NCBI RefSeq assembly: GCF_002979555.1
Contig: NZ_PCOZ01000002.1
Location: 248,001 to 312,000, forward strand
DNA: 64,000 nucleotides
Direction of reading: 5' to 3'
From: Pseudomonas sp. MYb60
Lineage (GTDB): Bacteria; Pseudomonadota; Gammaproteobacteria; Pseudomonadales; Pseudomonadaceae
The position numbers and the translations under genes are program-made. The notes under the pieces are model-generated. The model saw nothing but the letters and a program-made list of their open reading frames with translations, had not been told where the DNA came from and did no database searches. The stretch's first letter is position 1, and each line of letters opens with the position of its first letter. Positions 45,984 to 48,626 of this stretch are shown here, piece after piece.

Positions 45984-46730
45984 CTAAAGCTGCTGCATCA
46001 TCTTGCGCACACCGGCGACATGGCGTCGGCTGACGATCAGCGCGTCGCCATTGAGCCCTTTCAGGAACAGCTGAAAGTGTCCCAGAGGCGTGCGCTGCAA
46101 ACGCTCTATGCGCTCGCGGGCTACCAGCGCGTTGCGGTGGATACGCACGAAGCGCTCGCCGAATTCATCCTCGAGGGCCTTGAGTGGCTCGTCGAGCAAC
46201 ACCTCACCGCCCTCATGGCGCAGGGTCACGTATTTGTGATCGGCAATGAAGTAGACCACTTGATTCAAGGGGATCAACTCGATGCCTTTGCGCGTACGCG
46301 CACTGATATGGCTGCGTGGTCCATTGCCACTCTGGGCAGCGGGCTGCGTGAGCGCGGCGAGTTGGGCGCGATTGGGGCGCTCGGCTTTTTTCAGCGCCTT
46401 GAGCAGCGCTTCGGCCGTCACCGGCTTGACGACAAAACTGACGCCGCTGGCTTCCAGCGTCTGCGAGGGAAACTCTTCCTGGGCCGCGCACAACACCACC
46501 GCAGGCGGCGATTCACGCTCGCTCAAGCGGGCAGCAACCTGCAGGCCATCAAGCCCTGACATGTGGATATCAAGCAGCACCACATCCGGCTTGAGGCTGT
46601 CGATCAGCGTCAACGCCTCCTCACCGTTGGTGGCGCTCGGTTCAAGGACTGTATAACCCTCGAGCTCACTGACCAGACGGCTCAGTCGCTCGCGGGCTTG
46701 GGGTTCGTCATCAACGATCAGGACATTCAT
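45984..46730 (-). CDS. algR: LytTR-type response regulator AlgR
   Basis: This 248-aa DNA-binding regulator has a receiver domain with the phospho-acceptor Asp54 (VVLLDIHMSG), acidic pocket residues near VDDE and a conserved Lys in VVKPVT. The C-terminal LytTR domain (about 140-245) contains IELIPLNQVVYFIADHKYVTL and FVRIHRNALVA. AlgR controls alginate, twitching, cyanide and surface-sensing genes in P. aeruginosa. Its usual kinase AlgZ (FimS) should precede it, but only a remnant is left. The ATG at 46730 gives the standard 248 aa; the frame open to 46763 is rejected. Confidence 0.95.
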   Translation of the reverse strand: MNVLIVDDEPQARERLSRLVSELEGYTVLEPSATNGEEALTLIDSLKPDVVLLDIHMSGLDGLQVAARLSERESPPAVVLCAAQEEFPSQTLEASGVSFVVKPVTAEALLKALKKAERPNRAQLAALTQPAAQSGNGPRSHISARTRKGIELIPLNQVVYFIADHKYVTLRHEGGEVLLDEPLKALEDEFGERFVRIHRNALVARERIERLQRTPLGHFQLFLKGLNGDALIVSRRHVAGVRKMMQQL

Positions 46731-46954
46731 ATTGCACTGGATTCCTGCGTGAGTCTCGCACAAGGATAGCGTAGACAGGTGCGGTGACTTGCGTCACTGC
46801 GATCCACGCTAAGACTAGCGCGAGCGGCAAAAAGTGCCGTGGAAGCGGCACCCATATTTACCCGGACCTGTTCAAGAGCGCCCAAGACCTGCTGCCTTTG
46901 GGCATCGTCATAGGGTTTGCTGATACACAATCCGAATACCCCCCGTTTAAATGG
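46727..46954 (-). pseudogene. algZ: C-terminal remnant of algZ/fimS (AlgR partner kinase)
   Basis: A 228-nt open stretch with no proper start (an in-frame TAA lies just upstream at 46955-46957) encodes a run resembling the end of a LytS-type HATPase: ISKPYDDAQRQ like the ISNPYD strand, ALEQVRVNM like the ALxNIRERL helix, ALFAARASLSVDRSD, and a final strand TCLRYPCAR. It ends in TGA inside the algR start codon region (ATGA overlap), as a coupled kinase gene would. About 290 N-terminal codons (membrane helices and the His box) are absent, and the middle has lost the glycine box. I infer that algZ was deleted and decayed. Confidence 0.65.
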
Positions 46955-47231
46955 TTAGTCTGGGCTCTGACCGCATCACCCGACTTTGGTGCATTCACAC
47001 ACTATCAGTCCAACTGTAGACGCTCACTGGAACGACATTGCTCAATCGTCAAATATCGTTTCAATATGCCCCTGTCTCCAGTCTCGTCCGGGACGCGGTC
47101 GACGGCAAGGCACTTAGCCACCTTTGCACAAATAAAAATGCCGACGACCCACAGCACCGCCTCCAACGGCAACCCTGTTATTATCGCGGGCACACTTCCA
47201 TGCCTCTATTAAGCAGATCACGAGCGAATCC
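46955..47231. other. gap between the algZ remnant and argH
   Basis: About 275 bp without a gene. No frame on either strand shows a kinase His box or other recognisable motif. An AT-rich stretch (CTGTTATTATCG near 47174-47185), about 50 bp before argH, could be the argH -10 region, but no good -35 box pairs with it. This is the place where the front of algZ would have been. Confidence 0.4.
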
Positions 47232-48626
47232 ATGAGCACCGACAAGACCAACCAGTCCTGGGGCGGCCGCTTCAGTGAACCCGTCGACGCCTTCGTCGCC
47301 CGCTTCACCGCCTCCGTCACCTTTGACCAGCGCCTGTACCGCCACGACATCATGGGCTCAATCGCCCACGCGACGATGCTGGCCAAGGTCGGCGTGCTGA
47401 CTGACGCCGAGCGCGACGCCATCATCGACGGCCTGCACACCATTCAGGGCGAGATCGAAGCCGGCACGTTCGACTGGCGCGTCGACCTGGAAGACGTGCA
47501 CATGAACATCGAGGCCCGCCTCACCGACCGTATCGGTGTGACCGGCAAGAAACTGCACACCGGCCGTAGCCGTAACGACCAGGTCGCGACCGATATCCGC
47601 CTGTGGATACGTGATGAAATCGACCTGATCCTGTCCGAGATCACCCGCCTGCAAAAAGGTTTGCTGGAACAGGCCGAGCGTGAATCAGACACCATCATGC
47701 CCGGCTTCACCCACCTGCAGACCGCGCAGCCGGTGACTTTCGGCCACCACCTGCTGGCCTGGTTCGAAATGCTCAGCCGCGACTACGAGCGTCTCGTGGA
47801 CTGCCGCAAGCGCGCCAACCGCATGCCCTTGGGCAGCGCCGCGCTGGCCGGCACCACCTACCCGATCGACCGCGAATACACCGCACAACTGCTGGGCTTC
47901 GACGCCGTGGGCGGCAACTCGCTGGATGGCGTGTCCGACCGGGACTTCGCCATCGAATTCTGCGCCGCGGCCAGCATCGCGATGATGCACCTGTCGCGTT
48001 TCTCCGAAGAGCTGGTGCTGTGGACCAGCGCGCAATTCCAGTTCATCGACCTGCCAGACCGTTTCTGCACCGGCAGCTCGATCATGCCGCAAAAGAAAAA
48101 CCCTGACGTGCCGGAACTGGTGCGGGGCAAGAGCGGCCGCGTATTCGGCGCGCTGATGGGCCTGCTGACCCTGATGAAAGGCCAACCGCTGGCCTATAAC
48201 AAGGACAACCAGGAAGACAAGGAACCGCTGTTCGACGCCGCCGACACCCTGCGCGACTCGCTGCGTGCCTTTGCCGACATGATCCCGGCGATCAAGCCCA
48301 AGCACGCGATCATGCGTGAAGCGGCGCTGCGCGGGTTCTCCACCGCGACCGACCTGGCGGACTACCTGGTGCGCCGTGGCCTGCCGTTCCGTGACTGCCA
48401 CGAAATCGTCGGCCACGCCGTGAAATACGGCGTGGACACTGGCAAGGACCTGGCGGAAATGAGCCTGGAAGAGCTGCGCCAGTTCAGCGACCAGATCGAG
48501 CAGGACGTGTTCGCCGTGCTGACGCTGGAAGGCTCGGTCAATGCCCGTAACCACGTGGGCGGCACTGCGCCGGCGCAGGTCAAGGCAGCCGTTGCACGCG
48601 GCCAGGCACTGTTGGCAAGCCGCTAA
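47232..48626 (+). CDS. argH: argininosuccinate lyase ArgH
   Basis: This 464-aa cytosolic enzyme makes arginine and fumarate in the last step of arginine synthesis. It has [20 protein letters not shown] at the start, [13 protein letters not shown] at about 112-124, the family catalytic region [21 protein letters not shown] at about 280-300 with Ser/Lys, and [15 protein letters not shown]. The length is standard. The TGT/CGAGCG sequence before the ATG offers only a weak ribosome site. It is divergent from algR and is followed by a REPIN. Confidence 0.97.

Follow-up and report, generated by a model that had tools for sequence, protein, structure and literature searches.

What becomes of a response regulator when the gene for its partner kinase is lost, and why does a fragment of that gene persist next to it? 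Both questions are raised by the argH-algR region of Pseudomonas sp. MYb60, contained in the 64-kb stretch of DNA analysed here (hereafter, the window). AlgR has been studied intensively, and the usual means of telling its phosphorylated form from the unphosphorylated one are Asp54 mutants. An initial annotation of this DNA, made from the sequence alone, proposed that algZ (fimS), the gene for the kinase partner of AlgR, had been lost from between adjoining argH and algR genes, leaving only a C-terminal remnant. The coordinates of the two genes (Table 1) bear this arrangement out: argH is intact, the gap is exactly 501 bp, and the deduced AlgR matches PF00072 and PF04397, both above the cut-off, as a full-length regulator composed of REC plus LytTR. 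The stop codon of the remnant also overlaps the start of algR as ATGA (46727-46730), as had been annotated.

We then searched the whole genome with the intact AlgZ from an algZ-bearing locus, L068. The search returned a single significant place, located precisely in this gap (E 8.6e-24), with 47% identity over the aligned AlgZ residues; the next-best places had E values of 0.107 and 0.513. Likewise, the LytS-type kinase domain PF06580 had no match in the genome, an assembly of 46 contigs rated as 100% complete, and the intact AlgZ from L068 scored 86 bits against this family. No unlinked algZ was thus found in the 46 contigs by either search and, with a gap of only 501 bp and no AlgZ-like kinase elsewhere in the genome, MYb60 does not contain an AlgZR two-component system with both genes intact. 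A MucA-type anti-sigma domain is present in the genome.

Table 1. Features of the argH-algR region; positions are those of the 64-kb window.
Feature	Position	Strand	Remarks
algR, response regulator of 248 aa, REC + LytTR	45984..46730	(-)	Full length
Open frame, last 75 codons of the algZ remnant	46727..46954	(-)	
CAGGAATCC, conserved, just before algR	46739..46747	(-)	Possible ribosome-binding region
GTCTACGCTATCC, conserved block, algR leader	46764..46776	(-)	
TCTTA, predicted AlgU-dependent algR promoter, -10 element	46810..46814	(-)	17 nt from the -35 element
GCACTT, predicted AlgU-dependent algR promoter, -35 element	46832..46837	(-)	P. aeruginosa promoter, PMC4064291
Decayed 3' part of algZ	46730..47083	(-)	Alignment to AlgZ 243-360, 4 in-frame stops
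CGTCTACAG, element inside former algZ	47014..47022	(-)	
GAGACTGG	47078..47085	(-)	Putative, approximate 5' edge of the deletion
argH, divergent neighbour of algR	47232..48626	(+)	Intact

The loss of algZ is not a peculiarity of MYb60, but belongs to large groups and recurs; the initial annotation, which noted it in one strain, was therefore correct as to the loss and too narrow as to its extent. Among 398 Pseudomonas genomes drawn evenly, including that of the window, PF06580 is present in 119 (111 out of 385 when considering good-quality genomes) and absent from 279, with AlgR found in 395. Among the named AlgR relatives, which are the best 80 of 536 confirmed, the argH-algR gap spans 448-628 bp in 71 and more than 900 bp, with algZ inside, in nine; three of the 71 algZ-less loci come from complete chromosomes (L061, L101 and L106). 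We also fetched loci from 80 of the 276 PF06580-negative genomes having AlgR, favouring distant ones, and in all 80 algR was beside argH, at 286-627 bp. The gap was of 1157-1482 bp in 69 of the 70 PF06580-positive loci fetched. The exception, L007, is a second LytS-type kinase locus of genome G379, without argH, whose regulator shares only 28% identity with AlgR; this genome contains another PF06580 match.

From a total of 231 loci (230 fetched plus that of the window), we dropped L007 as well as L189 and L227, which were identical to others. The resulting 228 rows comprise 77 that are algZ-bearing and 151 that are algZ-less, the latter divided into 93 with the sequence G[C/A]ACTT-N17-TCTNA before algR, to which the window belongs, and 58 without it. 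Parsimony on a codon tree of argH plus LytTR yielded eight changes between presence and absence of algZ, a rough number given the poor resolution of this tree, in which two deep groups are mixed. These two argH plus LytTR groups, observed among algZ-less rows from L111-L190, may point to the argH-algR region having been transferred or recombined. We claim that algZ was lost more than once, mainly because the deletion structures differ, and we do not claim an exact number of losses.

The initial annotation confined the remnant to a stretch of 228 nt, coincident with the open frame of 75 codons in Table 1. This frame indeed ends in ...RASLSVDRSDASHRTCLRYPCARLTQESSAI, matching the C-terminus of the intact AlgZ from relatives (...RASLSVDRRDGRHFTCLRYPCARLTQESSAI); compared with Pfam, it retrieved no family up to E 1. 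The remnant is, however, longer. Besides the whole-genome match, which runs to 47083, a second AlgZ-like piece in a different frame (RYLTIEQCRSSERLQLD, in the ORF at 47005-47193) resembles by eye RYLSIEQYRLGNRLQLD of the L068 AlgZ, and the remnant therefore reaches beyond 46954. The motif GAGACTGG directly precedes the algZ start codon in L068 and appears in 21 of the 77 algZ-bearing rows; its copy in the window probably lies near the 5' edge of the deletion. The element CGTCTACAG is contained in all 151 algZ-less rows and in 50 of the 77 algZ-bearing ones, and is perhaps a second algR promoter. A search for known structured RNAs gave a single Rfam match, far below the gathering score, which we took as chance.

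The position of the remnant suggests why it would be kept. In P. aeruginosa, algR has an AlgU-dependent promoter, GCACTT-N17-TCTGA, situated 73 bp before the ATG (PMC4064291), and the algR promoter lies within the 3' end of algZ, which was the reason for using a special algZ mutant (PMC8787478). The window contains GCACTT-N17-TCTTA at 46837-46810, a predicted promoter at a P. aeruginosa-like distance from algR, with its boxes falling within the last 37 codons of the remnant. The pattern GCACTT-N17-TCTKA occurs once in the 64-kb window, against 0.02 occurrences expected, and two out of 100 shuffles had one. In the 93 algZ-less rows that contain it, G[C/A]ACTT-N17-TCTNA also precedes algR, with the spacing reported from P. 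aeruginosa.

Conservation is strongest towards the end of the remnant. In the 71 distinct algZ-less sequences from the named loci and the window, the 37 terminal codons are invariant at most sites and the 18 terminal ones at nearly all, whereas every codon position shows drift in codons -75 to -38. Sites at which minor bases exceed 5% number 9, 6 and 9 at codon positions 1, 2 and 3 (36 sites each) in the 93-row group, compared to 8, 7 and 22 in the 77 algZ-bearing rows, which is the usual coding pattern. Additionally, the third bases of intact algZ have a mean entropy of 0.92, which drops to 0.17-0.26 in approximately the last 18 codons, indicating that there is a DNA-level message at this end even where the AlgZ protein is made.

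The 58-row group, found among L111-L185, retains a core of this DNA. CAGGAATCCAG is present in all 58 rows, and the -10 region plus GTCTAC are kept in most of them, by eye; a TGAATCTT-type sequence replaces the AlgU -35 in 58 out of 58, around 100 bp before algR. For comparison, TGAATCTT occurs in five of the 77 algZ-bearing rows, at another place, and GCACTTTT is absent from four of these 77. The reading as an AlgU promoter is weaker in the 58-row group, because its members are devoid of the GCACTT box. The last 37 codons of the old AlgZ frame are uninterrupted in only 12 of the 58 rows, and 10 retain the overlap phase; in 48, what used to be the AlgZ tail frame continues into algR, which makes a longer AlgR start conceivable there. 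The lack of a third-position excess in the 93 rows, together with a DNA core that survives frame breaks in the 58, leads us to conclude that the remnant is most likely, as judged from these alignments, the promoter and leader of algR. Its description as a mere leftover of the kinase gene was hence only half of the story: it is the decayed end of algZ, but it coincides with a predicted AlgU promoter, and loss of the kinase did not end the conservation of its DNA.

How did AlgR itself fare? The initial annotation described it as complete, with Asp54 present, which is accurate as far as it goes; however, the protein from the window has Ala82 and Ser58 where Thr and Pro are usual, as well as His56 and Phe99, the counterparts in algZ-bearing rows being Thr at 82 and Tyr at 99. 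Pro58 is found in 77/77 algZ-bearing rows, 92/93 of the window's own group and 54/58 of the other algZ-less group; His56 and Ser58 flank Asp54 in the window (codons 54-58, at 46557-46571). In alignments with receivers of solved structure, residue 82 falls on their conserved Ser/Thr. One review defines pseudo-receivers by the loss of any of five active-site residues (the acidic pair, the Asp, T/S and K), with the T coupled to an aromatic residue three positions before the K (PMC12632262). Residue 99 of AlgR is this aromatic position, three before Lys102, and with Ala82 the AlgR from the window has the composition of a pseudo-receiver.

Across the 228 rows, Asp54 and Asp8 are universal and Lys102 occurs in 226, and a different picture emerges at the neighbouring positions. 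All 77 algZ-bearing rows have H84 and T82, versus 2 and 91, respectively, of the 151 algZ-less rows. Likewise, the T/S82 plus Y/F99 pair is intact in 77/77 algZ-bearing rows versus 46/151 algZ-less rows (36/93 and 10/58), and a signature of nine residues (F80 T82 A83 H84 F92 G98 Y99 V101 R105) is complete in 76/77 versus 0/151. The two algZ-less groups also differ in the residue affected. The 93-row group loses mostly residue 82, with Ala82 in the window and in 26/26 of the named rows L031-L056. The 58-row group loses mostly residue 99: 45 of its rows combine T82 with H99, residue 82 is T in 55 and S in two, and all five active-site residues are retained in 57.

This variation centres on one face of the protein. 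Residues 82-115 have a mean entropy of 0.294 in the algZ-bearing rows, versus 1.144 and 0.770 in the 93 and 58 rows; the LytTR domain has 0.193, 0.108 and 0.151. Using Nei-Gojobori counts with bootstrap over rows, dN/dS for residues 80-112 was 0.056 (0.045-0.066) in the 77 algZ-bearing rows, 0.196 (0.170-0.219) in the 93 rows and 0.161 (0.132-0.191) in the 58 rows, i.e. 2.9 to 3.5 times higher without algZ. In the same order, the values were 0.079, 0.109 and 0.084 for REC residues 1-79; 0.047, 0.023 and 0.042 for LytTR; and 0.107, 0.049 and 0.053 for argH. The rise at residues 80-112, which is seen neither in LytTR nor in argH, indicates that the switch face evolves faster and that the DNA-binding domain stays constrained. 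With dN/dS well below 1, this face is still constrained or is being reshaped.

The two loci with the strongest AlgZ remnants, L152 and L059, retain seven of the nine signature residues as well as T82 and Y/F99. This would be in keeping with AlgR decaying after the kinase was lost, an order of events that the loci with the next-strongest remnants (L085, L106 and L088) do not bear out, since they do not keep the T82/Y-F99 pair. Well-supported independent pairs number only three; H84 goes with algZ in the three (p 0.25), and the average for T82 is 0.9 of three. Separately, an apparently REC-less AlgR in G389 was discarded, because the short match reflects a broken frame, with similarity continuing on both sides of it. 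In this single-contig genome (L235, G389:C1:6191600-6195200) the algR frame is broken between the REC and LytTR halves, possibly by a sequencing error or else by a real split.

We also looked at genes under AlgR control. In P. aeruginosa, the operon for minor pilins and PilY1 needs FimS-AlgR (PMC5979040) and maximal binding of AlgR at fimU requires phosphorylation (PMC8787478), whereas phosphorylation of AlgR may be dispensable for alginate production (PMC4064291). PilY1 (PF05567) was found in 115/119 algZ-bearing and 112/279 algZ-less genomes, counts that ignore shared descent, and in none of the 69 genomes with AlgR nearest to that of the window, its own included. For the alginate marker AlgL (PF05426) the figures were 94/119 and 268/279, with absences partly by inference and shared descent again ignored. 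This pattern fits with the different need of phosphorylation of these targets.

The explanation that we favour, and consider probable, is that algZ was lost except for its 3' end, which likely holds an AlgU-dependent promoter and leader of algR, and that the Ala82 AlgR acts free of a kinase partner, as predicted from the change in its phosphate-responsive face. Deletions would have stopped at the point where the algR promoter would otherwise have gone; it would then be mainly the amount of AlgR, governed by envelope stress, MucA and AlgU, that determines its activity, and not AlgZ signalling. Targets of phosphorylated AlgR, such as the fimU-pilY1 operon, would have lost their input and often the genes too, and control of alginate may have continued despite the loss of algZ. 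We give about even chances to a broader proposal, of a natural experiment done repeatedly: several lineages would have cut algZ down to its buried promoter, and AlgR would then have broken the Thr82-Tyr99 phospho-switch, at residues differing among lineages, to become a regulator dosed by AlgU, as phospho-dependent pilus targets faded and alginate targets stayed. Against our favoured explanation, the universal Asp54 and nearly universal Lys102 would be odd were phosphorylation useless, residue 82 is mostly kept in the 58-row group, 112/279 algZ-less genomes keep PilY1, and the rows share descent, with those three well-supported independent pairs only.

Some of these observations would be expected if AlgR were still phosphorylated at Asp54 by another histidine kinase or by a small phosphodonor, e.g. 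acetyl phosphate. Besides the constancy of Asp8, Asp54 and Lys102, the 46 algZ-less rows with an intact 82/99 pair and the complete active sites of 57/58 second-group rows speak for such a donor; against it are Ala82 in the window and its 26 named relatives, the variation in algZ-less rows of switch-face residues that are fixed in algZ-bearing ones, and the absence from the genome of LytS-type kinases, the family that was surveyed. We regard it as possible, although with well below even odds. The earlier suggestion that AlgR acts unphosphorylated or is served by another donor thus gains from the changed switch face, on incomplete evidence and with Asp54 universal. It is unlikely that the changes in AlgR are lineage effects unrelated to kinase loss, such as a general relaxation or a faster evolution of some clades. 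The algZ-less rows do belong mostly to few clades in a poorly resolved tree, and the rows with the strongest remnants are split, two keeping T82 plus Y/F99 and three not; but in the same genomes dN/dS of LytTR and argH is equal or lower, and the pair was broken mainly at residue 82 in one algZ-less group and at residue 99 in the other.

With regard to the remnant, it appears very unlikely that it is retained because it is translated, into a small protein or as a leader that couples translation to algR through the ATGA. The last 37 codons are open and end in the overlap in all 93 rows of the window's type; nevertheless, their codon positions 1 and 3 have equal numbers of variable sites, the codons upstream of these have drifted at all positions, and most members of the 58-row group have the frame interrupted, out of phase or continued into algR. 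The codon-position pattern and these interrupted frames were also the reasons for rejecting a conserved peptide. Finally, the genome being in 46 contigs could bring to mind an assembly error, or else a deletion private to MYb60, but the chances of this are negligible given that the arrangement is shared by 71 of the best 80 named loci, three of them in complete chromosomes, and by the 80 fetched PF06580-negative loci.

Several elements of this picture are already known: the AlgU promoter of algR, its place in algZ, the absence of algZ from P. putida KT2440 and the activity of unphosphorylated AlgR in P. aeruginosa. As far as our literature searches show, the new elements are the extent and recurrence of the loss, the promoter kept as a remnant and the decay of the switch face; we found no printed account of recurrent algZ loss, of a promoter remnant or of AlgR switch decay in these searches, which did not cover older papers on the algR promoter. 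Since nature removed the kinase, apparently more than once, the AlgR residues that serve the kinase and the switch can be read apart from those for DNA control. Our results also indicate that a promoter buried in coding sequence can decide what survives gene loss, and have a bearing on the annotation of pseudogenes beside live genes.

The closest known system is AlgZ(FimS)-AlgR of P. aeruginosa, described with the same gene order, AlgR architecture and type of AlgU promoter (PMC4064291, PMC5979040); P. syringae also has a FimS/AlgR pair (PMC2222644). In contrast to P. aeruginosa, the kinase gene is reduced in the window to its 3' end, and AlgR is devoid of Thr82 and of other residues that are fixed in algZ-bearing genomes. 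The algR promoter of P. aeruginosa is likewise in the 3' end of algZ (PMC8787478), but here it outlives its host gene. P. putida KT2440 also has an AlgR (PP_0185) without algZ, listed as 'nd'; the table entries of that source give the absence alone, with nothing on the locus, a remnant or AlgR evolution (PMC12112638). Nonphosphorylated AlgR is active at some P. aeruginosa promoters (PMC10134789), in the presence of a kinase that is gone here. As in pseudo-receivers (PMC12632262) and other atypical response regulators, including HP1043 and ChxR, one active-site residue, the T, is missing from the AlgR of the window; unlike them, it retains Asp54, the acidic pair and Lys102, and its genus contains orthologues with both an intact site and a kinase.
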